NCBI GenBank assembly: GCA_026988115.1
Contig: JALSLV010000109.1
Span: 1 to 34,180 of the forward strand
Direction of reading: 5' to 3'
Source of the DNA: Lysobacterales bacterium
GTDB lineage: Bacteria > Pseudomonadota > Gammaproteobacteria > Xanthomonadales > Marinicellaceae
DNA length: 34,180 bases
The notes beneath the pieces are model-generated. The model worked only from the letters and a program-made list of their open reading frames with translations, ran no database searches and was not told the origin of the DNA. A program made the translations under genes and the position numbers. Positions within the stretch are counted from its first letter, which is position 1. The number at the start of each line of letters is the position of its first letter. Positions 4,373 to 34,180 of the stretch are shown here, one piece after another.

Positions 4373-4456
4373 AGGAATTATTTAAAAGTAATTACCTCTA
4401 TAAGCGAGATTGAAAGCAAAACCCCTCATTTAATTTTGATTTTTTTAAGGTTTATT

Positions 4457-4560
4457 GGGTAGTGGACTTCAGTCCACCCTTAAAAAAGTAGGCTAAAGCC
4501 AACAACCCAGCCAAGTTATCAAATAAAACTCACACTGGGTTGTTGACTTTAGTCAACCTT
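4457..4560. repeat. REP-like palindromic repeat cluster 2 (upstream of RAYT)
   Basis: An A+B unit at 4457-4508 (GTGGACT/AGTCCAC, then GTAGGCT with a decayed right arm) is followed by the conserved linker AAATAAAACTCA and a second A unit at 4537-4558. In that A unit the stem has changed on both arms to GTTGACT/AGTCAAC, so pairing is kept. This A unit also supplies the apparent -35 box of the RAYT gene. Confidence 0.85.
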
Positions 4561-4570
4561 AGGCTATGAT
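4543..4570 (+). promoter_or_regulatory. Putative promoter of the RAYT gene inside a REP unit
   Basis: TTGACT at 4543-4548 and TATGAT at 4565-4570 are separated by 16 bp. The -10 box ends 8 nt before the ATG at 4579, so the transcript would be almost leaderless. The -35 box is the left arm of a REP hairpin. Inferred from consensus match only. Confidence 0.5.
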
Positions 4571-4578
4571 ACAAAACC

Positions 4579-5091
4579 ATGAGAAAACAACTCTTCCACT
4601 ACAGCCAACTCAATAGCTACCAATTCGTCACCTTCCGCACACAAGCCAGTATCGATGATTTTCTCATCCGAATGAAAGACTCACCATTAGATGAATCACA
4701 AAAACAATTGGCAATGGACAAATACATAGATACATCCAACAAAGGACGATTATTAAACAATGAAGTAATCAAATTGGTTATAGATTATTGCAAAAGCCTA
4801 GAACCTAAGTTTTACTCATTAATTTGCCTTAGCGTTATGCCCAATCACCTGCATATACTCTTTGAACAAAAACAAAACATGAGCACAATCATGCAACAAC
4901 TCAAAGGCGGTCTTTCATTCAAAATCAATCAACACTTAAAACTAAAAGGCAATTTATGGGAACGCAACTATTTTGATAAAGCCATACGAAATGAAAAACA
5001 CCTGCAAGTGACCTATAATTATATCAAAAACAACGCTAGTAAAGCCAAGCTAACAGATGCTGACCAACGGTTTTATAGTATTTACGAATAA
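4579..5091 (+). CDS. REP-associated tyrosine transposase (RAYT, Y1_Tnp/IS200-like)
   Basis: A 170-residue protein of the Y1/HUH transposase family. The HUH pair is visible in MPNHLHILFEQ (about residue 90). The core ends with TYNYIKNNASKAKL, which corresponds to the region of RAYTs carrying the catalytic tyrosine. RAYTs are single-copy, domesticated relatives of IS200/IS605 that nick and process REP palindromes. The gene is flanked within 20 bp upstream and 11 bp downstream by REP-like units, the typical layout of a REPtron. There is no Shine-Dalgarno sequence, and the start fits a near-leaderless transcript. The family call is strong. That it acts on these particular repeats is inferred from position. 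Confidence 0.88.
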   Translation: MRKQLFHYSQLNSYQFVTFRTQASIDDFLIRMKDSPLDESQKQLAMDKYIDTSNKGRLLNNEVIKLVIDYCKSLEPKFYSLICLSVMPNHLHILFEQKQNMSTIMQQLKGGLSFKINQHLKLKGNLWERNYFDKAIRNEKHLQVTYNYIKNNASKAKLTDADQRFYSIYE

Positions 5092-5101
5092 AACTCATAT
5101 T

Positions 5102-5218
5102 GGGTAGTGGACTTCAGTCTATTCTTTTAAAGGGTAGGCTGAAGCCTACAACCCAACCACATATTGGGTTGTGGACTTCAGTCCACCTATTTAACAGATG
5201 AGCTTAAGCACACAACCC
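5102..5218. repeat. REP-like palindromic repeat cluster 3 (downstream of RAYT)
   Basis: Two A+B units lie head to tail: 5102-5154 (left hairpin decayed to GTCTAT on its right arm, right hairpin GTAGGCTGAAGCCTAC perfect) and 5166-5218 (left hairpin perfect, right one decayed). With cluster 2 they bracket the transposase gene. Confidence 0.85.
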
Positions 5219-5243
5219 AATCAACAAACATTGATAGCAAAAA

Positions 5244-5272
5244 TTGACATCAATACAATTCCAGATTAAAAT
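5244..5272 (+). promoter_or_regulatory. Strong sigma-70 promoter of parD
   Basis: A perfect -35 box TTGACA at 5244-5249 and TAAAAT at 5267-5272 are separated by exactly 17 bp. The predicted start is about 20 nt before the parD ATG at 5300. Read directly from the sequence; activity is not shown. Confidence 0.7.
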
Positions 5273-5299
5273 AATACAAAACACTTTTGGATTACCACA

Positions 5300-5548
5300 A
5301 TGAATTTTAGTCTAACCCCACAACTCGAACATTTTGTGCGAGAATATGCTGCAACTGGTGATTACAACAATGCCAGTGAAGTGGTGCGTGAAGCACTGCG
5401 TTTGTTTAAACGTACGGAAGAAGAACGTCATTTAAAACTCAAAAAATTACGCCAAGTCATTAATAAAGGTGATGATGCCATAAAGAAAGATGAAGTGACA
5501 GATATTTCTTCAATCAAAGAGCTGGATGATTTTTTTGAAAAGCTTTAA
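5300..5548 (+). CDS. parD: ParD-family ribbon-helix-helix antitoxin
   Basis: An 82-residue protein of normal ParD length. The N-terminal ribbon-helix-helix is visible as MNFSLTPQLEHFVREYAATG followed by NNASEVVREALRLF, the DNA-binding and dimerisation part. The acidic C-terminal half (KELDDFFEKL) is the usual toxin-wrapping segment. In the family, ParD binds its own promoter and neutralises the gyrase-targeting toxin ParE. Here the ParE partner downstream is broken, so this is an orphan antitoxin. It may survive as a promoter-bound repressor or as protection against related ParE toxins. It has a strong promoter of its own and lies between RAYT and the defence island. Confidence 0.88.
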   Translation: MNFSLTPQLEHFVREYAATGDYNNASEVVREALRLFKRTEEERHLKLKKLRQVINKGDDAIKKDEVTDISSIKELDDFFEKL

Positions 5549-5726
5549 GTACAAGCCAAAGTGACAATGAATTTCTACCGATTTCTCAAGTTCGTGATGA
5601 TGTAGATAATGGGTTGTTGTCATACAGGATTGGTAAACACGTGGTCTATTACTGTGAAACTAAGCAAGAATATTCAATCATCCGAATTTTGCATTCACAA
5701 ATGGATCCTGAGAAACATTTAACATA
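5526..5726 (+). pseudogene. parE: ParE toxin remnant (internal deletion and frameshift)
   Basis: An ATG at 5526, overlapping the end of parD as usual for parDE, begins MIFLKSFKYKPK and then hits TGA at 5562-5564. In another frame from about 5551 the C-terminal part of ParE continues: FLPISQVRDDVDNGLLSYRIG, then HVVYYCE, IIRILHSQMDPEKHLT and a stop at 5724-5726. The Y-R-I-G and I-I-R-I-L-H-xx-M-D marks are characteristic of ParE. About 30 to 40 central residues are missing compared with the usual length of about 95, so active toxin is not expected. Confidence 0.82.
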
Positions 5727-5774
5727 AATAATATCTTCACTATTAGGATTTAGGTGTTAGACAACTTTTTAAAA

Positions 5775-5932
5775 GTAGGCTAAAGCACACAACCCCGCAA
5801 CATACTGGGTAGTGGACTTCAGTCCACTCTTTTAAAAAAACAGGCCTAACCCTACAACCCGAATGATAAATTACCAAAATCCATGTTTTGATATTATTTA
5901 GTATTAGAATCACCTAGAATAAATAACCATGC
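5775..5932. repeat. Left direct repeat bounding the defence island (REP cluster 4 plus sigma-gene leader copy)
   Basis: REP units at 5775-5860 (B, A and a decayed B) are followed by 58 bp (5875-5932) that match 15942-15999 at 53 of 58 positions with no gap. The match runs through the start codon region: ATGC here corresponds to the ATGC that opens the sigma factor at 15996. After the ATG the two copies diverge and the left one stops within nine codons. With the REP part the duplicated block is about 157 bp. Confidence 0.85.
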
Positions 5933-5950
5933 AAAATACCAACATTAAGG

Positions 5951-5956
5951 TATAAT
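5951..5956 (+). promoter_or_regulatory. Putative -10 box of the defence operon
   Basis: TATAAT at 5951-5956, about 34 bp before the hsdM ATG. No convincing -35 box is at the right distance. It lies immediately downstream of the left direct repeat, so any upstream promoter element would fall in the duplicated leader. Confidence 0.4.
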
Positions 5957-5989
5957 CAAATTCCTAACTAAAAAGAACAAAAAAGAACC

Positions 5990-7510
5990 ATGGCAAAAGA
6001 CAATAACAACTTTGAAGCGGCACTGTTCAAGACTGCGGATAAACTCAGAAAAAACATAGATGCCGCCGAATATAAAAATGTGGTATTGGGTCTGATCTTT
6101 CTCAAATATATTTCCGATTCATTTCAAGAGCTGTACCAACAACTGCAACAAGACGAATATTCAGACCCAGAGGACAGGGATGAATACATTGCCGAAAACA
6201 TCTTTTTTGTCTCAAAGGATGCACGTTGGTCAAACCTGCAAGCCCAAGCCAAATCAGCCGATATTGGTATCGTCATTGATGCCGCAATGGATGCCATCGA
6301 AAAAGAAAACAAAGCCCTCAAAAATGTCTTGCCCAAGGTTTTTGCCAAGCCCAATTTAGATAAAGCCTCACTGGGGCAATTGATTGATGTCATCTCCAAT
6401 ATTGAACTCAAAGCCGTCAACGAACACTCAAAAGACTTGCTGGGACGTGTGTATGAATACTTTTTGGGGGAATTCGCCAATGCCGAAGGCAAAAAAGGCG
6501 GGCAATTCTACACCCCCAAATCAATCGTCAAATTAATGGTCGAAATCATCCAACCCTACAAAGGCAGAGTCTATGACCCAGCCTGTGGCAGTGGTGGCAT
6601 GTTTGTTATGAGTGAAAAATTTGTCGAAGAGCATCAAGGCAATATCCAAGACATCACCATCTACGGGCAAGAGTCCAACCAAACCACTTGGAAACTATCA
6701 CGGATGAATCTGGCCATTCGCAACATCAACTCAGAGTTTGTTGCATGGAACACCGAAGGCAGTTTTTTAAGAGATGCACACCCCGACCTCAAAGCCGATT
6801 ACATCCTGGCAAACCCACCCTTCAACCAATCCGAATGGGGACAAGACATCTTGACCGAAGACAGCCGTTGGAAATATGGACTACCGCCAGCAGGCAATGC
6901 CAATTTTGCATGGATGCAACACATGCTTTATCATCTGGCACCCAATGGCGTGATGGCAACCGTATTGGCCAATGGCAGCCTCAGCTCCAACACCTCTGGG
7001 GAAGGCGAGATACGCAAAAACATCCTCAAAGCAGACTTGGTCGATTGCATTGTTGCACTGCCCAAGCAGCTTTTTTACAACACAGGTATCCCAGCCACCA
7101 TTTGGATACTACGCCGAGGTCGCAACCAACGCCAAGGCGAAACCCTATTTATTGATGCTTCAGAAATGGGCTTTATGAAAGACCGCGTACACCGCGAATT
7201 TGCCCCCGCAGACATAGAAAAAATACAACAAACCTACCACAATTGGCGAAACAACAAAGAACTTCAAAATAACAAATATGAAGACATCAAAGGCTACTGC
7301 AAATCTGCCAAACTGCCAGAAATAGAAAAACACGCCTTTGTACTCACCCCAGGTCGTTATGTCGGCATCCCCGATGAAATTGATGACGGCATCCCATTTG
7401 CAGACAAGATGCATGATCTACTAACCACTTTATCCGAGCAAATAAACCAAGAACAACAACTGAATAAAAACCTGCAACAACAACTGGCAAAGATTGGTTT
7501 TAAACTATGA
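5990..7510 (+). CDS. hsdM: Type I restriction-modification DNA methyltransferase, M subunit
   Basis: A 506-residue N6-adenine methyltransferase of normal HsdM length. The N-terminal helical domain opens with FEAALFKTADKLRKNIDAAE and VVLGLIFLKYISD. The SAM-binding motif I is DPACGSGG at about 196-203, and the catalytic NPPF lies at about 275-278. QFYTP at about 172 is a further family mark. The C-terminus is coiled coil (LSEQINQEQQLNKNLQQQL), the contact region with HsdS. HsdM2-HsdS methylates the recognition site; with HsdR it forms the restriction complex. It is the first gene of the operon, and hsdS starts 49 bp downstream. Confidence 0.97.
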   Translation: MAKDNNNFEAALFKTADKLRKNIDAAEYKNVVLGLIFLKYISDSFQELYQQLQQDEYSDPEDRDEYIAENIFFVSKDARWSNLQAQAKSADIGIVIDAAMDAIEKENKALKNVLPKVFAKPNLDKASLGQLIDVISNIELKAVNEHSKDLLGRVYEYFLGEFANAEGKKGGQFYTPKSIVKLMVEIIQPYKGRVYDPACGSGGMFVMSEKFVEEHQGNIQDITIYGQESNQTTWKLSRMNLAIRNINSEFVAWNTEGSFLRDAHPDLKADYILANPPFNQSEWGQDILTEDSRWKYGLPPAGNANFAWMQHMLYHLAPNGVMATVLANGSLSSNTSGEGEIRKNILKADLVDCIVALPKQLFYNTGIPATIWILRRGRNQRQGETLFIDASEMGFMKDRVHREFAPADIEKIQQTYHNWRNNKELQNNKYEDIKGYCKSAKLPEIEKHAFVLTPGRYVGIPDEIDDGIPFADKMHDLLTTLSEQINQEQQLNKNLQQQLAKIGFKL

Positions 7511-7559
7511 GAAACCAAGCCCAATATAAAGCACATCTAAACCAGTTTGGAGAATCATT

Positions 7560-8801
7560 GTGAGTGATTTGCCAGATGGGTGGGTTGAAGTTAATTTGAC
7601 GGATGTAATTCATACAGCCAATACAGGGTTGGATGCGATTAAGAGAGCTCCAATAGTACTAGAAGATACAGGTGTTAAATGCTTTAGAATTCAGGATGCG
7701 TCACAAACCAAAAGCTATGATAAGTGGGGATTTACGAAAGTTGAACAAAAAAATTATGATAAATTTAAGTTATTGGAAGGAGATATATTGATTGCAAGGA
7801 CTGGAAATTCTATTGGAGTGAATTTTTTAGTTAAGAAAGATACAAAATCTGTTTTCAATAATGGACTTATTCGCTTGAGAACAAACAATAAAATTAGATA
7901 TGATTTTTTGTATAAAATAATTTCTTCAAAACTATTTCAAAGATATATTCAGTCTATTGCTTATGGAACATCAACACAACCTAATATGCAGATAAACGTG
8001 CTTTTGAGTTTTGACTTACGATTACCACCACTCCCAGAGCAAAAAGCCATAGCCAATATCCTCACAGCCTTCGATAAAAAAATAGCCCTACTACAAGCCC
8101 AAAACCAAACCCTAGAAACCCTCGCCCAAACGATTTTTAAGGAATGGTTTGTTGATTTTAATTACCCTGATGCCACCGGTGAAATGGTTGACAGTGAGCT
8201 TGGCAAGATTCCGCAAGGCTGGCAGGTTGGTCGATTAGGAGATGAGCTGGAAATAAAAAGAGGTGGGTCTCCAAGACCAATTAAAGATTTCATATCTGGC
8301 TCAGGTTATCGTTGGCTAAAAATTTCTGATGCATCAGCAACAAAATCTCCCTTTATATTTAAAATCAAAGAACATATTAAAAAAGAGGGTTTGAAAAAAA
8401 CTACATTATTAAAAGTGGGAGCATTGGTTCTTTCTAATAGTGCAACACCAGGAATACCCAAGTTCCTAGAGTTAGATAGTTGTATTCACGATGGGTGGCT
8501 ACATTTTCCTAGTAGTAATATTTTTCCATATCAATATTTATATTTATTCTTTAAAAATATAAGAAAATCATTAATACAACAAGGCAATGGAAGCGTATTT
8601 AAAAATCTTAAAACAGATATTTTAAAAAACTGGACTACCGTGATTCCTGACAAAAAGACATTGAAATCTTTTGATCAATTGATAATTCCAATCTTCGGAA
8701 AAATCAAAGACAACTCAAAACAGCTCAATAGTTTAACTAAAACAAGGAATATCCTATTGCCAAAGTTGATGAGTGGAAAACTGAGGCTTAAAAATGTTTA
8801 A
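7560..8801 (+). CDS. hsdS: Type I restriction-modification specificity subunit S
   Basis: A 413-residue HsdS with a GTG start preceded by GGAG at 7549-7552. The first target recognition domain covers about 1-150. The central conserved helix begins LPPLPEQKAIANILTAFDKK and ends FKEWFVDF (about 154-200). The second recognition domain (about 215-385) opens GKIPQGWQVGRLGD, and the distal conserved helix is LNSLTKTRNILLPKLMSGKL. The two recognition domains define the two halves of a bipartite target, which cannot be read from sequence alone. The recognition domains are visibly more AT-rich than the conserved helix between them, as expected if they were swapped in. Confidence 0.95.
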   Translation: MSDLPDGWVEVNLTDVIHTANTGLDAIKRAPIVLEDTGVKCFRIQDASQTKSYDKWGFTKVEQKNYDKFKLLEGDILIARTGNSIGVNFLVKKDTKSVFNNGLIRLRTNNKIRYDFLYKIISSKLFQRYIQSIAYGTSTQPNMQINVLLSFDLRLPPLPEQKAIANILTAFDKKIALLQAQNQTLETLAQTIFKEWFVDFNYPDATGEMVDSELGKIPQGWQVGRLGDELEIKRGGSPRPIKDFISGSGYRWLKISDASATKSPFIFKIKEHIKKEGLKKTTLLKVGALVLSNSATPGIPKFLELDSCIHDGWLHFPSSNIFPYQYLYLFFKNIRKSLIQQGNGSVFKNLKTDILKNWTTVIPDKKTLKSFDQLIIPIFGKIKDNSKQLNSLTKTRNILLPKLMSGKLRLKNV

Positions 8802-8840
8802 CATGAAATTTATCAAAAACAGTTGTTTGGAAATTCAAAA

Positions 8841-9449
8841 ATGAGTAATCAGATAGAAAACATAAACATATTTGATAAAGTTGCATTGTATGTTACATCA
8901 ATGTGGCTATTGTTTTTTTTGATTATCATTATGAAAATTGATGTTCCAATTGATTTTAGTATCAATGCTAGATTCATTGGTTGGGAAAGTTTGTTGTTAA
9001 AAAATATTATACCGCTTATTGCAGTGGTATTTTTAAGTTTTGGTCTATTATATTCGTACTCATTTAATTATAAGTTTAGAGGGACAAGTCCATTACAAAT
9101 AAAAATTAAAAAATTAAAAAATATCAACTATGAACAAATTATATTTTTAACAACTTATATTATTCCCCTTGTTAGTTTAAATTTAGATGATACTAGGTAT
9201 TTGGCGTTATTATTTGCACTAATTATAATTATAGGGATTATTTTTATAAAAACAGATTTGTATTATGCAAACCCAACCCTCTCTCTCCTAGGTTATCATA
9301 TCTACCAGATTTCAGGGACAAGAAATAATAATGGCAATAAGGAAAAACATATTGACTTAACAGTTATTACAAAAGGCAAAATTCAATCCTCACAAGAAAT
9401 CCTACTAAAACGTATCAGTGATACAATATACTACGGAAAAAAACCATGA
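8841..9449 (+). CDS. kwaA: Probable Kiwa defence membrane protein KwaA
   Basis: About 202 residues from ATG 8841; a TTG at 8823 could add six, but the ATG has a TTGGA-like site upstream. Four hydrophobic segments are visible at about 14-31, 55-71, 100-115 and 120-136, then a soluble C-terminus starting YYANPTLSLLGYHIYQI. Size, four-helix topology and the NPTLxLLGY motif fit KwaA. The stop overlaps the start of a DUF4868 (KwaB-like) gene by 4 bp, which is the Kiwa gene order. In Kiwa, KwaA is the membrane part of a KwaA-KwaB complex that responds to phage infection. The gene is very AT-rich compared with hsdM and hsdR, a sign of separate origin. A generic membrane protein remains possible. Confidence 0.68.
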   Translation: MSNQIENINIFDKVALYVTSMWLLFFLIIIMKIDVPIDFSINARFIGWESLLLKNIIPLIAVVFLSFGLLYSYSFNYKFRGTSPLQIKIKKLKNINYEQIIFLTTYIIPLVSLNLDDTRYLALLFALIIIIGIIFIKTDLYYANPTLSLLGYHIYQISGTRNNNGNKEKHIDLTVITKGKIQSSQEILLKRISDTIYYGKKP

Positions 9450-10378
9450 CTATTATCAAAAATATTAAAGCATTACTAAAGGAACAAGATTTATCTATCT
9501 TTATCTATTTTAGACTAAAAAATGGAATAGTTAAATTAGCAGATATAGATAATGATGTTTTACCTGATCTACTGAAAATTTATTGTAATGAAATGAGAAA
9601 TGAAATAACTGAGAAGGAGAATTTGGAAATTTTAAAGCTATCACATGCAGATGAAAGGAAAAATGTGATTTTTAAATATGACTTCGAAACGGATAGAGAA
9701 CCATTTTTGAGCATTGATAATGTCATAGAAGATAATAATATTCAGCCATTTAGTTTTTCAGACGACAAACTGGAAAATATTGATGGCTTTATCGCAAAAA
9801 TAGGCAACTCAAAAAAGGCTGCATATTTCTATACAAAATTTTATCCTGTAAATTTAATCAAGCAGGGGAAGGTAATTAAATTAATTAAATCAGATGCCAG
9901 ATTTGAAAAATTTAAAGAAGAACTCTTACAGCTTACAGGCAAGTTTGATATTATTTCTTATAATAGTGACTATTATATTAAAAAGATTGAGATTTTAGAA
10001 AGGTACTATAGCTTTGAGGAAGTAATTAAGAAGAAAGCGAAGAAAGGGTTTAAAAAGATTACTAAATTGAATATCCTATCAGATTCTTTAAAATTTGAAA
10101 AATATCTAGACAAAGGATTAACAAGATCTAAGAAACTTATAAAAGTAATGGCTTCATCAAAAGTTATATCAAAATCAATTTCTAATAGAGACTTAATCAA
10201 TTTTGTAGCCAACCACCCGATTTTAAAAAAGAGTATGGCAATAGATAGTGATAATTCGCAGTTTATTTTAAAGACAAACAAACATTGTGACATTTTTATC
10301 AAAATATTAGATGATGATTACTTAAGATCCGAGTTAACTAAGGAAGAGTATGATGCTATTGCAAAAAATAGTGTTTAA
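9446..10378 (+). CDS. kwaB: Probable Kiwa defence protein KwaB (DUF4868)
   Basis: 310 residues, the usual KwaB size, starting in an ATGA overlap with the preceding membrane protein. DUF4868-like marks are the central F-x-x-K-x-Y-P region (AYFYTKFYPVNLI), the hydrophobic strand FDIISYNSDYYIKKIEILER, and especially the C-terminal block LDDDYLRSELTKEEYDAIAK, which resembles the conserved L-x-D-x-Y-L-x-S-x-L-T-x-x-x-Y-x-x-x-x-K end of the family. There are no membrane segments. KwaB is known as the partner of KwaA in Kiwa anti-phage defence. The gene is strongly AT-rich and Lys/Ile-rich, unlike the flanking hsd genes. Assignment rests on motif memory and gene order, not on a search. Confidence 0.7.
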   Translation: MTIIKNIKALLKEQDLSIFIYFRLKNGIVKLADIDNDVLPDLLKIYCNEMRNEITEKENLEILKLSHADERKNVIFKYDFETDREPFLSIDNVIEDNNIQPFSFSDDKLENIDGFIAKIGNSKKAAYFYTKFYPVNLIKQGKVIKLIKSDARFEKFKEELLQLTGKFDIISYNSDYYIKKIEILERYYSFEEVIKKKAKKGFKKITKLNILSDSLKFEKYLDKGLTRSKKLIKVMASSKVISKSISNRDLINFVANHPILKKSMAIDSDNSQFILKTNKHCDIFIKILDDDYLRSELTKEEYDAIAKNSV

Positions 10379-10388
10379 TTATTAAACA

Positions 10389-11450
10389 ATGAAAAACAAA
10401 CTAACCACCAATATCACAAACACCATCAAAGACTTATTGATGGTGGCAAGGACGCAAGTTGTGCAGCATGTTAATACCACCATGGTGAATACCTATTTTG
10501 AAATTGGCAAGGTGATTGTCGAGCATGAACAGCAAGGGAAACAAAGAGCCAAATACAATACGCAAACATTAAAGGCTGTTTCAACAGAGTTAAGCAGTGA
10601 ATTTGGCAAAGGGTTTTCGGTGACAAATTTGGAAAGAATGCGCTTGTTTTATTTGCAGTATTCAAAATCGGCGACAGTGTTGCCGATTTCTGATAAATCA
10701 GAAAAACACTTGTCCATTAATCAAAAAACCAAGACAACTGAAAATAATTTTACCCTCTCTTGGTCACATTATGTGTTTTTAATGGGGTTAGATCAGCCTG
10801 AAAGGGAGTTTTATCAAAAGGAGGCGCAAATAAATAACTGGTCTTTGCGTGAGTTACGCAGACAGTTTGATTCTGCTGTGTATGAAAGAGTGGTGTTAAG
10901 TCGGGATAAGAAAGGCGTATTAACCGACAACCTGAAAAAATACCATTCCCCAGAAAGCCCCCAAGATAAAGTGAAAGACCCATATATACTGGAGTTTTTA
11001 GGACTAAATGAAGCCAATAAATACACAGAAACTGAATTGGAACAAAAAATAATTGACCATTTAGAACATTTTTTGCTGGAACTTGGCAAAGGCTTTACCT
11101 TTGTTGGGCGACAAAAATGCTTTACTTTTGATGATCAGCACTTTTTTATTGATTTGGTCTTTTACCATCGGTTGTTGCGTTGTTTTGTGGTGATTGACCT
11201 TAAACTGGGTCGCATTAAGCATCAGGATATTGGGCAAATGCAGATGTATGTCAATTATTACGACCGCTTTGTCAAAACAGAAGACGAAAACCCAACCATA
11301 GGAATATTACTAGCCAAAGACAAAAATAAAACCTTGGTTGAAATCACTTTGCCGAAACAATCCAATATTTTCGCCAGTGAATACAAAACCTATTTACCCA
11401 CTAAAGAGCAATTAATGGAACAACTAAAAGAACAAATAGAAGATGCCTGA
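10389..11450 (+). CDS. DUF1016 (YhcG-type) PD-(D/E)XK nuclease
   Basis: 353 residues, typical for the family. The N-terminal DUF1016 helical domain includes ARTQVVQHVNTTMVNTYFEIG, KAVSTELSSEFGKGFSVTNL and ERMRLFYLQY. The C-terminal nuclease core has FIDLVFYHRLL (D255) and VVIDLKLG (D270, K272), then Q-M-x-M-Y-V-N-Y-Y. This is the PD-(D/E)XK pattern with the catalytic acid and lysine present. Family members are common inside type I RM and other defence loci, but their function is not settled. The stop overlaps the hsdR start by 8 bp, so the two genes are translationally linked. It starts 10 bp after kwaB. Confidence 0.9.
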   Translation: MKNKLTTNITNTIKDLLMVARTQVVQHVNTTMVNTYFEIGKVIVEHEQQGKQRAKYNTQTLKAVSTELSSEFGKGFSVTNLERMRLFYLQYSKSATVLPISDKSEKHLSINQKTKTTENNFTLSWSHYVFLMGLDQPEREFYQKEAQINNWSLRELRRQFDSAVYERVVLSRDKKGVLTDNLKKYHSPESPQDKVKDPYILEFLGLNEANKYTETELEQKIIDHLEHFLLELGKGFTFVGRQKCFTFDDQHFFIDLVFYHRLLRCFVVIDLKLGRIKHQDIGQMQMYVNYYDRFVKTEDENPTIGILLAKDKNKTLVEITLPKQSNIFASEYKTYLPTKEQLMEQLKEQIEDA

Positions 11451-14400
11451 TTTAAGCGAAGATGCCATAGAACAAGACTTGATTGAGTTGCTACAAGCTC
11501 AAGGTTATGCTTATTGTCATGGGGCACAGCTTGATAGAGGTAAATTTGATGGCGTAGTGCTGGAACAACAATTTAAAGCGGCGTTGAAACGGCTCAATCC
11601 CGATGTGCCTGAGTCTGCTCGCAGTGAGGTATTTCAAAAGGTCATGCATCTGGGTTCGGATGATGTCATGCGCAACAACGAAAGATTGCATTTAATGCTG
11701 GTTGATGCGGTGACGGTGGAGTATTTTAAAGATGGGGAAACCAAGGGCTTGCAAATAAAACTGATGGATTTTGACAATCCCCAAAACAATGGTTTTAGGG
11801 TGGTGAATCAATTTGTGATTAAGGAAAACAACCAATCCAAACGCTTGGATGTGGTGCTGTTTGTCAATGGTTTGCCTTTGGTGGTGATTGAGCTCAAAAG
11901 TGCGGTCAGTGAAAAAGCCACACTGGAAAAAGCCTATACCCAAATTCAGAACTACAAAACGGCTATCCCTACTATTTTCAACTACAATGCCATGTGTGTG
12001 ATTTCTGATGGCATTGATGCGCGGGTGAGTACTTTGTCTGCACCTTTTTCACGTTTTCAGGCATGGAAATCACCACTTCAGCAAGACAATCTCAACTTGC
12101 CACAATTGCATATCATGGCGGATAGAATGTTACGCAAAGATGTGCTGTTAAAACTGATTCGTTTTAATACCGTCTTTGAGTCGGTTGAGAGTAAAGATAA
12201 GAAAACCGGTTTGTTGTCTTTGGTAAAGATTAAAAAAATGGCAGCTTATCATCAATATTATGTGGTGGAAAAAGCCATTGCCTCTACTTTGAGGGCGATT
12301 AATTTAACCAATGCCAGCAATAGAGTAGATGAAGAACCAGAAGCCTATGGTCTAACCTCAGTTAAAACCCAGCCCAAAGGTGATATGAAAGCGGGTGTGG
12401 TTTGGCACACTCAAGGCAGTGGTAAGTCTCTTTCAATGGTTTTTTATGCTGGGCAACTGGTGGCAGAACCCGCCATGAAAAACCCAACCATCGTAATTTT
12501 GACCGATAGAAATGATTTGGATGAACAGCTATTTGCTACCTTTGCACATTGTAAATCATTGCTGCGACAAACACCCGTACAGGCACAAACTCGTCAACAT
12601 TTAAAAGAGTTGCTCAATGTCTCTGGCGGTGGTATTGTTTTTACCACTATTCAGAAGTTTTATCCTGAGGATGGCAGTAATGTATTTGATCGGTTGTCTC
12701 CACGCGGAAACATTGTGGTTGTGGCTGATGAGGCACACCGCAGTCAATATGGCTTTGCAGGAAAACTGGAATCCAATAAAAGCAGCTTACAATTTGGCAC
12801 AATCAAATACGGCAATGCCAAATACCTGCGTGATGCTTTACCCAATGCGACTTATATCGGTTTTACTGGCACACCGATTGAAAAAGATGACCGCGATACG
12901 CAAAAGGTCTTTGGCAATTATATTGACATCTATGACATTGCTCAAGCAGTCAAAGATGGGGCAACGGTCGCACTCAATTATGAAAGCCGTTTGGTTAAGA
13001 TTAAACTGAATGAGGATGTGGGTAAAAAGATTGATACACTGGTTGATGAAATTGGCAATGTCACGGATGAACAGTTAGAAAAAGCCAAAAAGAAAAATGC
13101 CCAAATCAATGCTATTATTGGTCATCCTGATAGGTTAAAAGACATTGCCAAAGATATTGTCATGCATTTTAAAGAGCGTCAAAAAGTGTTTGAAGGCAAA
13201 GGTATGATAGTCTGTATGACACGTCAGATTGCGGTGGATTTATATGCACAAATCATTAAACTAAACCCTGCTTGGCACAATAATGATTTAGACAAAGGTG
13301 TCATTAAAGTGGTGATGACCAGTGCTACCGACGACCCAGCGAGTTTTCAGCCTCACCATACCAATAAAAAAGTCCGTAAACTGTTAGCACTGCGGATAAA
13401 AGATATTCATGATGAATTGCAACTGGTGATTGTTCAATCCATGTGGCTAACAGGTTTTGATGCACCACCACTACACACCATTTATATCGATAAAAAAATG
13501 CAAGGCGCAGCTTTGATGCAAGCCATTGCCCGAGTCAATCGGGTTTATAAGGATAAACCAGCAGGTTTGATTGTTGATTATATTGGTATTGGTCAGGATT
13601 TGCGTCATGCCATGTCTGAATATACTGAAAGTGGCGGACAAGGAAAAGCGGTGGTAGATTTGAGCGATGTCATTGCTGCTATGAATGCTAAGTTTGAAGT
13701 GGTACACCAGATGTTTCATGGGCTGGATTACGCTAAATATTTTGCTGTCACAACGGGTGAAAAACTGAAAATATTATTGGCCAGCCAAAATTTTATTTTA
13801 AATGACGAAAAACTTAAACAACGGTTTTTGTCCGAAGTCACCGCATTGTCCAAGTTGTATGTTATGGCAGTACCCAGTGATGCATCGGAAGCCATTAAAG
13901 ACCGTGTTGCTTTCTTTCAAGCAATTAAATCGAGATTGATGAAATATACCCCAAGCGGTGGCAAAACAGATTTACAAGTTACATCAGCCATAAAACAAAT
14001 TGTTGATGGTGCATTATGCAGTGATGGTGTGATAGATATTTTTGCAGCCGCAGGTGTAAAGACGCCATCTATAGATATTTTATCAGAAGAATTTTTGCTC
14101 GAAGTTAAAAATATGGAGCATAAAAATCTGGCATTTGAGTTATTAAAAAAACTGCTCAATGATGAAATAAAGTTAAGAAAGAGAACCAATATCATACAAG
14201 GCAAAAAGTTTTCTGAAATGTTAGCCTCAACAGTTAAGCGTTATCACAACAACCAGATTGATACCGCACAGGTGATTAAAGAACTGTCTGAAATTGCCAG
14301 AGACATGAATGTAGCCGATAACAAAGCCAAAGATTTGGGGCTAACTCCACAGGAGTACGCTTTTTATACCATTCTTGCTGAAAACAGCTCAACTCAGTTT

Positions 14401-14622
14401 TTGGCAGACAACAAGATGAAAGAATTGATACATGTCATAGTTGACATCATCCGCAAAAATGCCACCGTAGATTGGAACAAAAGAGCCGATGTGAAAGCCA
14501 AATTACGCTTGTTGGTTAAAAAAGTACTGATGAGATATGGCTATCCACCAGATTTAGCCAGAATTGAAGCTGATAGAGTATTAGATCAGAGTGATAAATT
14601 GGCAGAAGAATTTTCGAATTGA
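11443..14622 (+). CDS. hsdR: Type I restriction endonuclease, R subunit
   Basis: 1059 residues. The N-terminal nuclease domain shows RLDVVLFVNGLPLVVIELK (D135/D136 area, E150, K152) followed by Q-I-Q-N-Y. The translocase motor has Walker A TQGSGKS (about 323-329), TDRNDLDEQL, DEAH at about 429-432, GFTGTP and the late helicase motif region VIVQSMWLTGFDAPPLHTIY with QAIARVNR. HsdR cleaves unmethylated DNA at a distance after ATP-driven translocation. All catalytic marks are present and the frame is intact. It is the last gene of the operon, so the Kiwa pair and the DUF1016 gene sit between the S and R subunits. Confidence 0.97.
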   Translation: MPDLSEDAIEQDLIELLQAQGYAYCHGAQLDRGKFDGVVLEQQFKAALKRLNPDVPESARSEVFQKVMHLGSDDVMRNNERLHLMLVDAVTVEYFKDGETKGLQIKLMDFDNPQNNGFRVVNQFVIKENNQSKRLDVVLFVNGLPLVVIELKSAVSEKATLEKAYTQIQNYKTAIPTIFNYNAMCVISDGIDARVSTLSAPFSRFQAWKSPLQQDNLNLPQLHIMADRMLRKDVLLKLIRFNTVFESVESKDKKTGLLSLVKIKKMAAYHQYYVVEKAIASTLRAINLTNASNRVDEEPEAYGLTSVKTQPKGDMKAGVVWHTQGSGKSLSMVFYAGQLVAEPAMKNPTIVILTDRNDLDEQLFATFAHCKSLLRQTPVQAQTRQHLKELLNVSGGGIVFTTIQKFYPEDGSNVFDRLSPRGNIVVVADEAHRSQYGFAGKLESNKSSLQFGTIKYGNAKYLRDALPNATYIGFTGTPIEKDDRDTQKVFGNYIDIYDIAQAVKDGATVALNYESRLVKIKLNEDVGKKIDTLVDEIGNVTDEQLEKAKKKNAQINAIIGHPDRLKDIAKDIVMHFKERQKVFEGKGMIVCMTRQIAVDLYAQIIKLNPAWHNNDLDKGVIKVVMTSATDDPASFQPHHTNKKVRKLLALRIKDIHDELQLVIVQSMWLTGFDAPPLHTIYIDKKMQGAALMQAIARVNRVYKDKPAGLIVDYIGIGQDLRHAMSEYTESGGQGKAVVDLSDVIAAMNAKFEVVHQMFHGLDYAKYFAVTTGEKLKILLASQNFILNDEKLKQRFLSEVTALSKLYVMAVPSDASEAIKDRVAFFQAIKSRLMKYTPSGGKTDLQVTSAIKQIVDGALCSDGVIDIFAAAGVKTPSIDILSEEFLLEVKNMEHKNLAFELLKKLLNDEIKLRKRTNIIQGKKFSEMLASTVKRYHNNQIDTAQVIKELSEIARDMNVADNKAKDLGLTPQEYAFYTILAENSSTQFLADNKMKELIHVIVDIIRKNATVDWNKRADVKAKLRLLVKKVLMRYGYPPDLARIEADRVLDQSDKLAEEFSN

Positions 14623-14649
14623 TGATAGGTTAGATTAATTGGTTTAAAA

Positions 14650-14856
14650 GGTAGGCTGAAGCCTATACCCAATCTCATACTGGGTAGTGGACTTTTATTC
14701 GTATCATCCTTGATACTCACCTTCATCCATGAAGGCTTACATGAAAATACTCTCCAGAAGTATTTTTGTCCACTCTTAAAAAAAAGTAGGCTAAAGCCTA
14801 CAACCCGCTGGAGTTGTCAAATAAAACTCAATTTGGGTTGTTAACTTTAGTTGACC
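14650..14856. repeat. REP-like palindromic repeat cluster 5, interrupted
   Basis: A B unit (14650-14670) is followed by an A unit starting at 14682. The A unit is split after GTGGAC (14687-14692); its right arm GTCCAC resumes at 14768-14773. A B unit at 14786-14806, the conserved linker and a decayed A unit (14835-14856) complete the cluster. Confidence 0.85.
14697..14766. repeat. Three-hairpin insert of about 70 bp inside a REP unit
   Basis: Three adjacent inverted repeats: 14701-14716 (GTATCA/TGATAC), 14720-14735 (CCTTCAT/ATGAAGG) and 14744-14766 (AAAATAC/GTATTTT, with an inner TCT/AGA pair). Each has CC in its loop. The segment interrupts an otherwise canonical REP hairpin. There is no coding potential. 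It may be a small non-autonomous palindromic element; I do not recognise it. Confidence 0.65.
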
Positions 14857-15095
14857 TTTTTTAAAAGTTTTGTGCACCAACATAAATACGGTTTAACCTT
14901 AAAATAACACAAGAATCACATAGAACCATTTTGTATTATTGAATTGGTTCAGTTTACAAAACACATTAATTGCGGCGTTTTGTGCCGCATAGTACAATAA
15001 AATTAAACTTTCTGGGTAAATAGGTTGAGGAAAAGCTCATATCGGATTGTTGGCTTTAATCCACAAAGCTATACCCAGCAATCTTTCATCAACCC

Positions 15096-15130
15096 TTGCA
15101 AAAACGTACGTCCAATGTTAATATGCGTAC
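15096..15130 (+). promoter_or_regulatory. Promoter/operator of the Phd-PIN module; transcript probably leaderless
   Basis: TTGCAA at 15096-15101 and TAATAT at 15119-15124 are 17 bp apart. The expected transcription start is at or next to the A of ATG 15131, and no Shine-Dalgarno sequence is present. The inverted repeat GTACG (15106-15110) / CGTAC (15126-15130) straddles the -10 box, a suitable site for autoregulation by the Phd-like antitoxin (inference). Confidence 0.55.
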
Positions 15131-15370
15131 ATGAATAATTTAACACCAACAGAATTAAGAAATAATATCTATAATGTGCTGGATGAGGTATTGGCAACGG
15201 GTATTCCTGTTGAAATCATTAGAAAGGGCAAAACCTTAAAGATTATTGTCGCCGATCCAATTGATAAACTACAAAATTTATCTGTGAGGTCTGGATTTAT
15301 TACCGGTGACTCCGAGGATTTGCCTGATATTCATTGGGATGAGGATGTCAAGTTAGATACAGTCTTATGA
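15131..15370 (+). CDS. Phd/YefM-type antitoxin
   Basis: 79 residues with the Phd/YefM N-terminal fold: LTPTELRNNIYNVLDEVLATG followed by PVEIIRKGKTLKIIV. This part dimerises and binds DNA. The C-terminal tail (DLPDIHWDEDVKLDTVL) is acidic and is the probable toxin-binding part. The stop overlaps the next ATG by 4 bp (ATGA), so antitoxin and toxin are coupled. Phd-type antitoxins commonly pair with PIN toxins. The pair sits inside the direct repeats that bound the defence island and could stabilise it. Confidence 0.85.
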   Translation: MNNLTPTELRNNIYNVLDEVLATGIPVEIIRKGKTLKIIVADPIDKLQNLSVRSGFITGDSEDLPDIHWDEDVKLDTVL

Positions 15371-15741
15371 TATACCTGGATACGCATGTGGTGGTTTGGT
15401 TGTATGCGGGTGATACAAATAAATTAACAAAATCTGGTATCGGCTTAATTAATGACAATGATTTGTTGATATCGCCTATTGTACAACTTGAATTGCAATA
15501 CCTGTTAGAAATTAAAAGAATCACGCAACCTGCCGATACCATTTTAAAAGATTTATCCAAAACCATTGGATTGAAAACCTGCAATAAACCTTTCAATGAT
15601 GTCATCAAACAATCCATCAGTCAAAACTGGACAAGAGACCCTTTTGATCGAATCATTGTTGCCCAAGCTTCTATCAATAAAACTAAGTTATTGACAAAAG
15701 ATAAAACAATACTGAAAAATTATAATAGTGCTTGCTGGTAA
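15367..15741 (+). CDS. PIN-domain (VapC-like) ribonuclease toxin
   Basis: 124 residues with the PIN acid set: D5 in IYLDTH, E42 in VQLELQ, D91 and D94 in RDPFDRIIVAQA, and D112 in LLTKDKTI. This layout is the small PIN toxin family, whose members are Mg2+-dependent RNases cutting tRNA, rRNA or mRNA. The substrate here is unknown. All acidic positions are present and the frame is intact. Translation is coupled to the antitoxin by a 4-bp overlap. Confidence 0.9.
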   Translation: MIYLDTHVVVWLYAGDTNKLTKSGIGLINDNDLLISPIVQLELQYLLEIKRITQPADTILKDLSKTIGLKTCNKPFNDVIKQSISQNWTRDPFDRIIVAQASINKTKLLTKDKTILKNYNSACW

Positions 15742-15843
15742 TTGATAAATACAGCTTAAAAATTATACAATTCTCACCGTGTTTATCGGAAAAACTAAGT
15801 TTATTACGCGACAACCAACTTGAAATCTACCGCTTTTTAGAAG

Positions 15844-15999
15844 GTAGGCTAAAGCCTACAACCCAACCTCATACTGGGTAGTGGACTTTTAGTCCACCTT
15901 TTAAAAAGTAGGCTGAAGCCTACAACCCTAATGAAAGTTGTCAAAATCCATGTTTTGATATTAATTAATATTGGAATCACATAGAATAAATAATCATGC
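15844..15999. repeat. Right direct repeat bounding the defence island (REP cluster 7 plus sigma-gene leader)
   Basis: REP units B-A-B at 15843-15928, all three hairpins nearly perfect, are followed by the sigma-gene leader. The block 15942-15999 matches 5875-5932 at 53 of 58 positions, and the REP part also matches with small differences. This copy is the one attached to an intact gene, so it is probably the original. Confidence 0.85.
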
Positions 16000-16523
16000 C
16001 AAACAAAAACAACCAAAACCAACAAGCCGACAATGACTTAAACCAAGTCATCTATGCGCAGTTGCGAAATTTGGCACACAGCCTTATGGTTAAGGAACGC
16101 AATAACCATACATTATCGCCAACGGATTTGGTGCATGAGGCTTATTTAAAAATATCGGGTTCAAAACTATCGGTTAATGATGAGAAGCATTACTTTAGAA
16201 CGCTTGCCAAGCAAATGCGAATGGTTTTGATTGATTATGGCCGTGCCAAACAAAGCCACAAAAACAATGATGGCAAAACCGATGTTAATTACACAGAGTC
16301 TTTAGGGTTGATGGATGTCGCTCCTGATTTTTCTCAATTGAGTGCAGCTATTGATAATTTAAATCAATTTGATGAACGCAGTGCACAGGCGATTGATTTG
16401 GTCTATTTTGCCAATCTTCCACAAGATAAAGCCGCCAAATATTTGGAGATTTCAATTGCCACCCTAGAGCGAGATATAAAATTTGGTCGTGCTTTTATTA
16501 ACAGATATATCAATGAACAATGA
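15996..16523 (+). CDS. ECF-like RNA polymerase sigma factor (TIGR02999 type)
   Basis: 175 residues. The sigma-2 region reads LSPTDLVHEAYLKI and HYFRTLAKQMRMVLIDYGRAK, the hallmark of the TIGR02999 group. The sigma-4 region is AQAIDLVYFANLPQDKAAKYLEIS followed by ATLERDIKFGRAFI. The stop overlaps the start of a Ser/Thr kinase gene by 4 bp. No Shine-Dalgarno site is seen, and TAGAAT at 15982-15987 lies 8 nt before the ATG, so a near-leaderless start is possible. In related loci such sigma factors are thought to be controlled through the linked kinase, but the targets here cannot be read. Confidence 0.9.
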   Translation: MPNKNNQNQQADNDLNQVIYAQLRNLAHSLMVKERNNHTLSPTDLVHEAYLKISGSKLSVNDEKHYFRTLAKQMRMVLIDYGRAKQSHKNNDGKTDVNYTESLGLMDVAPDFSQLSAAIDNLNQFDERSAQAIDLVYFANLPQDKAAKYLEISIATLERDIKFGRAFINRYINEQ

Positions 16524-19180
16524 ATAAACCAAAGTTTAATCAACAAGTCAAAGAGCTCTTTAGCCAATGTGTCGATGTGTCAGTTACAGAACAAAAAGCC
16601 ATCATCGCAAACAGTAAGGTTTCAGATGAAGTCAAAAAGATGGTTGTCAGTTTGCTTAATTTTCAAGATGATAAAAACTCACCTTTAACCGGCACCATCA
16701 AAAAAAGTATAGACTTAAGCTTAGGTGAAGAAACATTAAAAGCAGGCGACATCATTGATAACTACAAGTTGGTTAAGCCCATTGGAGCAGGAGGTCAAGG
16801 TGAGGTGTGGTTAGCCGAGCGACATGATGGCGAATTTGCTCACCAAGTGGCAATTAAGTTTATCAAACTGTCTCATAACCAAAAAGAACTGTCGCGTTTT
16901 CAAACCGAGCGAGAACTATTGGCATCCCTACGCCATGCCAATATTGCACAGTTAATCGGTGGTGGAACTTACCAAAATAACCGCGTTTACATGATTATGG
17001 AATGGGTTGATGGTTTGGCTATTATTGACTACGTGAGAAAAAATTTAACCAGCATCAAGGATTATCTGCTGTGCTTTAGTCAATTGTGTGAAGCGGTTAG
17101 TTTTGCTCATAGCAATGGCATCATACATCGAGATATTAAACCCTCAAATGTCATTATCACTCATGATGGCACGGTAAAACTATTGGATTTTGGTATCGCC
17201 AAAAGTCTTGAGGCTGATGCCACGCAGACAAGAAGCGAAATGATGATGACCTTTGCTTATTCCAGCCCTGAGCAAATCAATGGTCAGCCTGTTTCAACGG
17301 CTTCGGATATTTATGCGCTGGGTTTAATATTGTATGAATTGCTAACCAGCAAACAAGCCCAAGATCACACCACCGAATCTCCAGCGGACATGATTCGCAG
17401 CATCACCGATGTTACACCCAGTTTGCCCAGTAAAATCAGACCTGATATTGGCTTGAACTTCACCCCAAAACAATTGCAAGGCGATTTAGATAATTTGGTC
17501 ATGATGGCAATTCGCAAAGAACCCGATAGACGTTATGCAACGGTCAAAGACCTGGTGACCGATATTCAAAACTATTTGTCTTCCAAACCATTGATAGCCA
17601 GTGGTGACAGCATGGTCTATAAATTTAAAAAACTCATCAAGCGCAATCGTGCGGCTTCGTTTTTTGCCATAATAGTTTTGGCTTTTCTTATGGCGTTGCC
17701 AATCTACATGTATCAAACCAATAAAGAAATAAAAAATCAAAGAGACATAGCCAAAGAAACCTCGGATTTCTTAATCAATATTTTAAAAGGCGCCTCGCCA
17801 TTGGGTGTTAATGGTAAGGAAACCAAGTTGTCGGATGTGTTAGCCATGGGCGAACGCCAAATTGAATACGATTTTAACGACCAATTGCCTTTAAAGGCCA
17901 AGATGTATGATACCTTGGCGATTATTCAGCACAATATTGGTAATAATACAAAAGCATTGGAACATTATCAAAAAGCTGAAAAGATTTATAGTGCTATAAA
18001 TGACCCCGAAGGCCAACTAAAATCATTAGGACAACAGGCAATATATGCCACCAGACTTGGTCAAACACAACAAACCAAAAACCTGCTAGCAAAGGCTGAT
18101 ATTGTCTCTCAACAAGTGACGAATCCTAAGGCATTGGCATGGTACCAAATACGCAAAGCCACATTGATGCATGAAAGTGGTGATTTTGATGGTTCTTATC
18201 AATTGTTAACTGAGACATTTAGGCAACTCGAAACACATGCTATAAAAGATGATGAGATTTTGGGACGACTTTACTATGAAATGTCTATTGCAGTAAAAAA
18301 CAAAGATAAAATAATGGCTTTAGAGTACAACCAAAAAGCGTTAGATTTTGCCAAATCAAGTGTCGGTTATTACCATCCACTTTATCAATCACGATTAGTA
18401 TCACTCATTTATCGATTCATTCGCTTAAAAGATTATAAACAGGCAAGGTTGGCCATAGATGAGTCGTTGATATTGGCTGAACGACTCTATTCTAAACAAC
18501 ACCAACGCTATGCCGATGTACTAGCGATTAAAGCTGTTTTCCATCATGATTTAGGTGAATTTAATCAAGCTGAATTAGATTATAAACAGTCAATAAATAT
18601 CTTCAAAACTAAATTTGGTGAAGACAATGTATCCTATGCCACAGGCATCAATAATTTAGCCTATTTGTATGAAGACATGGGCAAATATCCACAAGCAGAG
18701 ATATTATATCGACAATCTATAGCCTCTCGAAAAAGGCTTGATCCAGATAACATTATGAGAATTATTTCGGCAGAATCTAATTTAGCAAGATTGTGGGTGA
18801 AATTAGGTAAATACCAACAAGCCAATGAGTTGATGCCCCGTATCATTGAACAATATACCCAACACAAACGTGACAACCTCTACAATTATATTATTTTAGC
18901 AGCTATCACCATTGAAGATGGGTCTGATCAAGAAAAATGTGAAAAAGGCTTAAAGCAAATAGACGACCTGATTCCCGATTTACAAAAACAATCGGACAAA
19001 GGCTGGCGTCGCATGTATGCCGAACTATGGATTGCCAAATTAGCCAGCAATTGTCAACAACCAATCATAGCAAATAAATTTTCAACAGCCGCTCTTGAAA
19101 AGTCTAAAATAATCTATCAAACTGGCAGTAAAGGTCAACAACGGTTTGCACAACTCGTGAAATCTCTTAACAAAAAATGA
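16520..19180 (+). CDS. Membrane Ser/Thr protein kinase with TPR domain
   Basis: 886 residues. Residues 1-80 are a short N-terminal region; the kinase domain spans about 82-355, with glycine loop GAGGQG (89-94), K113 in AIKFIK, HRDIKPSN (203-210), DFG (223-225) and SSPEQ in place of APE. All catalytic residues are present, so activity is expected. One transmembrane helix lies at about 379-398. The rest, probably periplasmic, is about eight TPR-like repeats (for example KALEHYQKAEKIYSAIND, QAELDYKQSINIFKTKFG, QAEILYRQSIASRKRLDP), a protein-binding sensor domain. It is coupled to the sigma gene by ATGA, implying joint function; the phosphorylation target is unknown. Confidence 0.92.
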   Translation: MNKPKFNQQVKELFSQCVDVSVTEQKAIIANSKVSDEVKKMVVSLLNFQDDKNSPLTGTIKKSIDLSLGEETLKAGDIIDNYKLVKPIGAGGQGEVWLAERHDGEFAHQVAIKFIKLSHNQKELSRFQTERELLASLRHANIAQLIGGGTYQNNRVYMIMEWVDGLAIIDYVRKNLTSIKDYLLCFSQLCEAVSFAHSNGIIHRDIKPSNVIITHDGTVKLLDFGIAKSLEADATQTRSEMMMTFAYSSPEQINGQPVSTASDIYALGLILYELLTSKQAQDHTTESPADMIRSITDVTPSLPSKIRPDIGLNFTPKQLQGDLDNLVMMAIRKEPDRRYATVKDLVTDIQNYLSSKPLIASGDSMVYKFKKLIKRNRAASFFAIIVLAFLMALPIYMYQTNKEIKNQRDIAKETSDFLINILKGASPLGVNGKETKLSDVLAMGERQIEYDFNDQLPLKAKMYDTLAIIQHNIGNNTKALEHYQKAEKIYSAINDPEGQLKSLGQQAIYATRLGQTQQTKNLLAKADIVSQQVTNPKALAWYQIRKATLMHESGDFDGSYQLLTETFRQLETHAIKDDEILGRLYYEMSIAVKNKDKIMALEYNQKALDFAKSSVGYYHPLYQSRLVSLIYRFIRLKDYKQARLAIDESLILAERLYSKQHQRYADVLAIKAVFHHDLGEFNQAELDYKQSINIFKTKFGEDNVSYATGINNLAYLYEDMGKYPQAEILYRQSIASRKRLDPDNIMRIISAESNLARLWVKLGKYQQANELMPRIIEQYTQHKRDNLYNYIILAAITIEDGSDQEKCEKGLKQIDDLIPDLQKQSDKGWRRMYAELWIAKLASNCQQPIIANKFSTAALEKSKIIYQTGSKGQQRFAQLVKSLNKK

Positions 19181-33978: not shown

Positions 33979-34062
33979 TGATATTTTTGGAAATCGACCA
34001 ATTCCATTATCACTAATACTACGGTGACAAGAAAAACAAGCGCCATCTTGGTCAGTATTAAC
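33979..34062 (-). pseudogene. Residual N-terminal haem-binding (CXXCH) segment of the vWA gene
   Basis: Upstream of the ATG at 33978 and in the same frame, the sequence reads VNTDQDGACFSCHRSISDNG and joins the vWA protein without a stop. CFSCH (codons 34024-34038) is a c-type haem attachment motif, and TMPP at residues 20-22 of the downstream frame could give the distal Met ligand. The frame is closed by TAG at 34063-34065. There is no start codon or signal peptide before CXXCH, so the 5' end of a cytochrome c-vWA fusion has been lost, apparently through the adjacent IS630-type insertion. Confidence 0.6.
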
Positions 34063-34180
34063 CTAGCTAGATAATATCGCTCTATTATGTTATAATAGTA
34101 GCATGAAAAATATAGACTTAAGAACACTAACACCAGAGGCTAGAAAAGAATTAAAGCGAGTCACTATTAGACTATTTAAA
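34055..34180 (+). mobile_element. Left end of an IS630-like insertion sequence (partial)
   Basis: Inferred from the transposase start at 34103 and from the abrupt loss of the vWA/cytochrome reading frame at 34063. IS630 elements insert at TA; several TA dinucleotides occur at 34057-34072, so the exact junction is unresolved. Confidence 0.5.
34103..34180 (+). CDS. IS630-family transposase, N-terminal part, runs off the right edge
   Basis: 26 residues to the window end, starting MKNIDLRTLTPEARKELKRV. This is the usual opening of the helix-turn-helix domain of IS630-type transposases. TATAAT at 34091-34096 lies 6 nt before the ATG, so the transcript may be leaderless. The insertion sequence end must lie between about 34055 and 34100; the terminal repeat cannot be confirmed without the right end. 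Confidence 0.65.
   Translation, partial: MKNIDLRTLTPEARKELKRVTIRLFK

Follow-up and report, generated by a model that had tools for sequence, protein, structure and literature searches.

A defence-gene block between two copies of a sigma-factor leader in a Lysobacterales genome, and the same site in two related species

How defence islands that carry no mobility gene enter and leave a genome is poorly understood, and this question is raised by contig JALSLV010000109.1 of a Lysobacterales bacterium (draft genome GCA_026988115.1; 3.5 Mb in 121 contigs), in which a run of defence genes lies between two direct copies of a segment made up of repetitive extragenic palindromic (REP) units and the leader of an extracytoplasmic function (ECF) sigma factor gene. 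We analysed the whole contig of 34,180 nucleotides (the window; C109 among the contigs of its genome, which bear C-numbers) and compared the site with its counterparts in the genus. The window's own genome is called G000, the genus relatives discussed are G006 to G010, and loci bear L-numbers. A first-pass annotation of the window had proposed that the block is an excisable defence cassette of a kind not driven by an integrase. The repeat and the insertion are confirmed by the results below and excision is possible; across three species the site is empty in one, has a small insert in another and contains the defence genes in the third, and the leader of the target gene is duplicated in both filled cases.

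The repeat pair and its locus-specific part

The repeats and the two landmarks that delimit the site are as follows.

5765-5936, forward strand: left repeat, three REP units and a sigma-type leader running to just past its ATG; 146 of 174 positions identical to the right repeat
15833-16003, forward strand: right repeat, three REP units with the leader and ATG of the sigma gene
15996-16523, forward strand: ECF sigma factor, the right landmark (PF07638); relatives at 88% (G010) and 86% (G006) identity
4400-4437, no strand assigned: conserved box at the start of a divergent surface-protein gene, the left landmark, ATAAGCGAGATTGAA; blast matches 4392-4441 to G006 and 4400-4437 to G010

The first-pass annotation had matched 5875-5932 to 15942-15999 at 53 of 58 positions without gaps and had recognized the right copy as the leader and ATG of the sigma gene. 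Both observations hold, and blastn extends the match to the full repeats of 172 bp (left) and 171 bp (right), with an E value of 9e-44 when the two flanks are compared alone and 2.3e-40 within the window. In each repeat the REP units run forward, reverse and forward, as judged by eye. The exact runs of at least 8 bases shared by the pair measure 22, 17, 12, 12 and 10 bp, and the 22-bp run, the longest, spans a REP-leader junction that is peculiar to G000.

The locus-specific portion of the repeat is the leader, not the REP units. Scanning the window without gaps with the right-copy 58-mer gave 53 matching positions at 5875, followed by 35 at 8814 and 32 at 14881, with a best value of 30 on the opposite strand. 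Across the whole draft genome the leader block occurs in two places only at E ≤ 0.001, a threshold that much more diverged copies would escape; an explanation of the leader as a common dispersed repeat is thereby ruled out for G000. The REP units before the two copies match too, as the first-pass annotation had said (90 of 112 positions before the leader, compared with 56 of 62 in the leader portion, a difference that is not significant; Fisher p 0.13), but this match is not special to the pair, since the right array also shares 79-91% identity, over 56-100 bases, with other REP arrays in the window. A third trace of the leader had been suspected at 14912-14925. Its score was reached by 3, 32 and 34 of 300 shuffles with three leader queries, and the ungapped alignment in register, at 32/58, falls short of the 35/58 found elsewhere in the window. 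No convincing leader trace follows the REP arrays at 4510-4578, 5222-5299 and 5549-5760, where the best score was reached by 36 of 300 shuffles.

On contig C24, AAAATCCATG and then AT-rich sequence like the first half of the leader block come after a REP array (L083:2682-2792). The first 15-20 bases of the leader block may belong to the REP unit and not to the sigma leader.

Between the repeats lie, in order, hsdM, hsdS, kwaA, kwaB, a DUF1016/YhcG nuclease gene, hsdR, a REP array, a Phd-like antitoxin gene and a PIN toxin gene, all with open frames, much as the first-pass annotation had listed them (KwaA is recognized by PADLOC only, and Phd falls below the Pfam cut-off). No integrase or other site-specific recombinase, such as an integrase-borne genomic island would carry, was found by Pfam among the 25 window proteins scanned, small overlapping frames being left out. 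This agrees with the earlier view that no integrase drives the block. The sole transposase detected, a REP-associated tyrosine transposase (RAYT), sits outside the left repeat.

The site in related species

Among 10 genus members, the region upstream of the sigma gene is informative in G006 and G010 only. The nearest sigma match in G008 is cut inside the gene by a contig end, and G009 and G007 have sigma relatives at only 59% identity; the 52 bases upstream of the relative in G009 match the other leaders at 18-23 positions only. G000, G006 and G010 each have a single exact copy of the box ATAAGCGAGATTGAA, which is absent from G009 and G007 even when 1 mismatch is allowed. A reversed-pattern control at 1 mismatch gave about one match per genome, so only exact matches to the box are counted.

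The box and the sigma ATG are 150 bp apart in G010, 1014 bp apart in G006 and 11,596 bp apart in G000. G010 has a single leader and a remnant REP and no defence block. In G006 an insert of ∼1 kb, consisting of a RAYT gene and REPs, is accompanied by a duplicated leader, the order being box, REP pair, leader copy, RAYT tail, REP pair, RAYT, REP pair, leader and sigma gene. The left leader copy of G006 stops just before the start codon and that of G000 a few bases past the ATG. The RAYTs of the window and of G006 are 27% identical over 121 amino acids, and no recombinase was noticed in translations of the occupied G006 site, which were checked by reading and without a domain scan.

By sequence comparison, then, this is one site in three states: empty in G010, with a small insert in G006, and with the defence block in G000. 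From these three states between the box and the sigma and kinase genes, with G010 empty, it follows that the G000 block is acquired DNA. The acquired DNA is larger than first proposed, because the 150 bp of G010 leaves no room for the RAYT and parD genes, which were therefore added too. The first-pass annotation had predicted an empty site in a relative, with the RAYT/parD side joined directly to the sigma gene; G010 does have the single leader and no block, but RAYT and parD are not joined to the sigma gene there and are themselves missing, and its REP is of another type. Since the empty site is without these genes as well, the locus probably grew in several steps. The most interesting addition to the earlier picture, and the new one, is G006, in which alignment shows other cargo at this position and the species' own duplication of the leader on either side of it.

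Over 47 aligned positions, the two G000 leaders share 42, the G006 pair 35, and leaders taken from different species 31-36. The G000 copies, agreeing at 42 of 47 positions against 31-36 between species, are thus probably younger than the species split, yet not fresh. G006 and G010 have one REP-leader junction in common, which differs from that of G000. Because the G000 pair agrees better, and because its 22-bp run crosses a junction found in G000 only, the G000 duplication was probably independent of that in G006; conversion of an older duplication is a possible alternative, the informative sites being few. A 64-base leader query against the 10 genus relatives (E ≤ 10) gave, below E 0.001, solely the two sigma-locus leaders of G006. 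It failed to list the genuine leader of G010, which is too diverged, and further diverged copies in the relatives could escape likewise.

How the block may have arrived

We give a probability of about one half to the reading that the repeats were left as a scar by an insertion anchored through homology. The cargo, with a REP array at one end, would have paired there with the REP array beside the sigma gene, forming the homologous end, and the other end of the cargo would have been joined without homology at the sigma start codon, a little downstream in the resident sequence. The REP array and leader would thereby have been duplicated on either side of the cargo and the gene-proximal leader left intact, and the block would now stay put apart from rare deletion. 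If this is true, small repeated hairpins could make a promoter region a place where defence genes accumulate.

The inserts of both filled species have a REP array for one end and their other end at the sigma start, so that a structure with one homologous and one non-homologous end would fit in two species. The duplicated unit comprised REP and leader together, because the 22-bp run crosses the G000 junction while that of G006 and G010 differs. The better conservation of the leader relative to the REPs would fit a donor that brought its own REPs, the difference not being significant as given above. A ComEC-type competence domain is present in all three of G000, G006 and G010, and also in 10 of 14 control genomes, and hence adds little.

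Insertion of this type has been studied in E. coli, where conjugated linearized DNA with homology at one end gave a target-duplication PCR product in 56 of 60 Lac- recombinants, with duplications of 109-950 bp in 14 sequenced clones, which the authors explain by recircularization and a single crossover (PMC3240628). For the type VI secretion arrays of V. cholerae, stepwise growth via one anchored end has been proposed (PMC5361080). Whether by homology-facilitated illegitimate recombination or by a single crossover of recircularized DNA, the G000 locus would share with these cases one homologous and one illegitimate end and stepwise growth, besides its duplicated target, and it differs from them in its putative REP-array anchor, in its larger insert and in being read from sequence only (PMC3240628, PMC5361080).

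Several points weigh against an anchored insertion. Neither the anchor nor any microhomology at the join can be set beside a donor sequence. Two independent joins at the same start codon would be a coincidence if joining is random, REP identity of ∼80% makes a weak anchor, and two relatives only bear on the case. One-sided integration proper is very rare in E. coli (3e-10 per recipient) and classically leads to deletions and short inserts of ∼1 kb, compared with ∼10 kb here (PMC3240628). Finally, a tandem duplication of REP and leader before the insertion would look identical.

No donor of the cargo was found in searches of family and class genomes, plasmids and phages. A KwaB match turned up in a single genome among the 33 of the family (E ≤ 0.001) and in a single one among the 369 of the class (E ≤ 1e-20), G000 itself both times; 2 of 72,556 plasmid records match, at 31% identity, and no phage record does. 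Relatives of HsdM (E ≤ 1e-60) occur in 6 of the 33 family genomes including G000, and in neither G006 nor G010. The cargo genes suggest mixed origins, because their G+C content varies from 26% in kwaA and 27% in kwaB to 45% in hsdM, whereas the sigma, kinase and ccmF genes, like the last third of the window, are at 36-42%.

The cassette proposed by the first-pass annotation would leave by recombination between the two copies, with no recombinase of its own and with the sigma leader restored, and this we regard as rather unlikely. The geometry of the repeats permits it, since recombination between the copies would indeed leave one leader before the sigma gene, and there is a precedent in the 13-kb microcin H47 island of E. 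coli. That island has no recombinase, is bounded by imperfect repeats of 148 and 144 bp with identical segments of 13, 11, 20 and 17 bp, and was found by PCR to excise, also without RecA (PMC3191183, PMC5426353). The G000 block is like it in size, in its long imperfect end repeats of similar length and quality, whose longest identical runs are also about 20 bp, and in having no integrase or excisionase among the scanned proteins. It is unlike it in that excision and integration have been demonstrated for H47, whereas the G000 block is known from sequence alone, and in that its cargo consists of defence genes and its repeats of a gene leader and REP units (PMC3191183, PMC5426353). Even for H47, the excised form gave a weak PCR band, and in the strain of origin it took nested PCR to detect it (PMC3191183, PMC5426353). 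A repeat-flanked arrangement is in itself not rare, because 10-18% of variable segments in three bacterial species are flanked by direct repeats (PMC2884548). An empty relative does exist, but the G010 site, having neither RAYT nor parD and another type of REP, is not the predicted excision product. No excised form was seen, and the diverged copies suggest long residence. Of the proposal, the acquired insertion stands, with one leader and no block in G010; excision of the block from G000 gained no support here and is no more than possible. The earlier idea that the toxin-antitoxin pair guards the block, in which case losing it would kill or slow the cell, is likewise a conjecture.

The REP array and leader might instead have doubled locally in tandem, with the cargo entering later beside the spare copy. 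These genomes do have tandem arrays at a number of REP or RAYT loci (L085, L096 and L119), and the two G006 leaders, at 35/47, are as distant from each other as leaders of different species, which points to an old duplication. However, no duplicated relative free of cargo was seen, G006 and G010 alone being informative, and the differing REP-leader junctions would require separate duplications in each species, so we consider this order of events unlikely. We also think it distinctly unlikely that the REP array and sigma leader form a recurrent docking site, at which differing cargo would enter between duplicated leaders with no integrase, host recombination or the neighbouring RAYT exchanging the REP-leader unit; were this so, one cargo could replace another and the sigma gene would never be without a functional leader.

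The RAYT might have copied a REP unit extended by the leader to the place before hsdM, and in its favour a RAYT adjoins the array in both G000 and G006. Across the genus 36 Y1_Tnp matches were obtained, 30 with loci and 6 without a locus, and in 12 of the 30 loci, the window's own included, self-comparison finds direct repeats on either side of the transposase. We aligned the 11 others by eye, their neighbouring gene starts being unmapped: identity continues for ∼25 patchy bases beyond the REPs in L114 and for ∼11 in L097, and in the rest it stops with the REPs. Because identity ends at or near the REPs in these loci, duplication of a leader is not an ordinary by-product of RAYTs in this genus sample, and such copying is improbable. 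Outside the 30-locus list, contig C103 of G000 carries a RAYT 73% identical to that of G006, with REP-type repeats on both sides.

That the repeats are the left and right attachment sites (attL and attR) of an island that has lost its integrase or uses one acting in trans is very improbable: the same start-codon boundary in two species would suit it, but no recombinase came to light among the scanned window proteins or on reading the unscanned G006 translations, and identity continues into the REPs, which is unexpected for an att core. It is hardly credible that the left copy, which ends 53 bp before hsdM, is merely a shared promoter of the sigma regulon now serving that gene, since, for all that the leader is the better kept part (not significantly so), no third copy exists in the genome at E ≤ 0.001 and identity crosses both the REP junction and the ATG, needlessly for a promoter.

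As at the defence hotspots of the E. coli pan-genome, the defence cargo of the site varies while its position between conserved genes is constant; islands at those hotspots are described as usually riding on prophages, integrative and conjugative elements or transposons, and no such element is seen at the G000 site (PMC10121019). In the titles and abstract openings of the open-licence literature we found no account of REP-anchored defence islands with duplicated leaders.

Genes and REP units of the window

The genes of the block and the kinase gene downstream of the sigma gene are listed here; all lie on the forward strand except the REP array, to which none is assigned.

5990-7510: hsdM, type I methyltransferase (PF02384, E 4.7e-110)
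7560-8801: hsdS, specificity subunit (PF01420, E 1.8e-27)
8823-9449: kwaA of Kiwa (PADLOC KwaA, E 2.1e-64; no Pfam match)
9446-10378: kwaB of Kiwa (PF16162, E 1.3e-35; PADLOC KwaB, E 1e-89)
10389-11450: DUF1016/YhcG PDDEXK nuclease, PADLOC PDC-S02 (PF06250, PF17761)
11443-14622: hsdR, type I restriction subunit (PF04313, PF18766, PF11867)
14643-14865: REP array after hsdR (self-blast), one unit of which is broken by a short insert (by eye)
15131-15370: Phd/YefM-like antitoxin (PF02604, E 6.1e-6, below the Pfam cut-off at 26.3 against 29.8 bits)
15367-15741: PIN-domain toxin (PF01850, E 2e-10)
16520-19180: Ser/Thr kinase with tetratricopeptide repeats (TPRs), overlapping the sigma gene (PF00069)

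The three hsd genes, all long open frames, make up a type I restriction-modification set, and the adjacent kwaA and kwaB (PADLOC) a Kiwa system. The Kiwa and DUF1016 nuclease genes (8823-11450) are nested within the restriction set, between hsdS and hsdR. Besides KwaA, the protein encoded at 29350-29847 gave no Pfam match. In the REP array after hsdR, the insert that splits the broken unit (14685-14770) is some 65-75 bases long, as judged by eye.

To the left of the block lie the RAYT and parD genes with their arrays.

4453-4560, no strand assigned: REP array, a bacterial interspersed mosaic element (BIME), of the self-blast family
4579-5091, forward strand: RAYT-type Y1 transposase, 170 amino acids (PF01797, E 3.8e-12), in which MPNHLHILFE holds the HxH motif
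5091-5221, no strand assigned: REP array of the self-blast family
5300-5548, forward strand: ParD antitoxin (PF03693)
after ParD, to about 5727: shortened ParE-like remnant, named from reading of the sequence

The RAYT, with its Y1/HUH transposase domain, is flanked by GTAG-headed REP cores at 4488 and 5134, and in these two respects it is like the RAYT/REP (BIME) units described elsewhere (PMC2817692). Inverted orientation of the two flanking REPs would also be expected of such a unit; both core matches are forward, and the arrays also contain reverse REPs (by eye). In the genome, the REP core GTAGGCTNAAGCCTACAACCC is matched 18 times when up to 2 mismatches are allowed and 7 times when up to 1 is, 5 of the 7 being in the window; more diverged REPs fall outside this count. 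REPs usually exceed 100 copies per genome, with some RAYTs of few REPs also tabulated (PMC2817692), whereas the exact core in G000 has few matches and these cluster at this locus. A REP family so largely local to its own RAYT seems unusual.

The stretch 5219-5772 duplicates, at 82-86% identity, a parDE pair of contig C24 (L083:4440-5118), where the two matching pieces are separated by about 118 bp more and an open 106-amino-acid frame follows ParD. By this alignment the window's stretch is ParD with a ParE remnant from which about 118 bases of the ParE part are gone.

Promoter-like sites in the window are near the shuffle level (46 compared with 40.0, sd 6.1); a 9/12 match lies in the right leader at 15965, and none is listed in the left leader. 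Terminator-like sites are above the shuffle level (18 compared with 8.9), and some of them are REP hairpins. Further along, two Trans_reg_C/TPR protein genes have about 223 bases in common at 74% (25873-26095 and 30080-30302), a duplicated regulator. The last 125 bases of the window (34056-34180) are identical to the end of C24 (L083:5113-5237) and run into the start of an open frame, MKNIDLRTLTPEARKELKR..., which we take to be IS630-like and which would account for both contig breaks.

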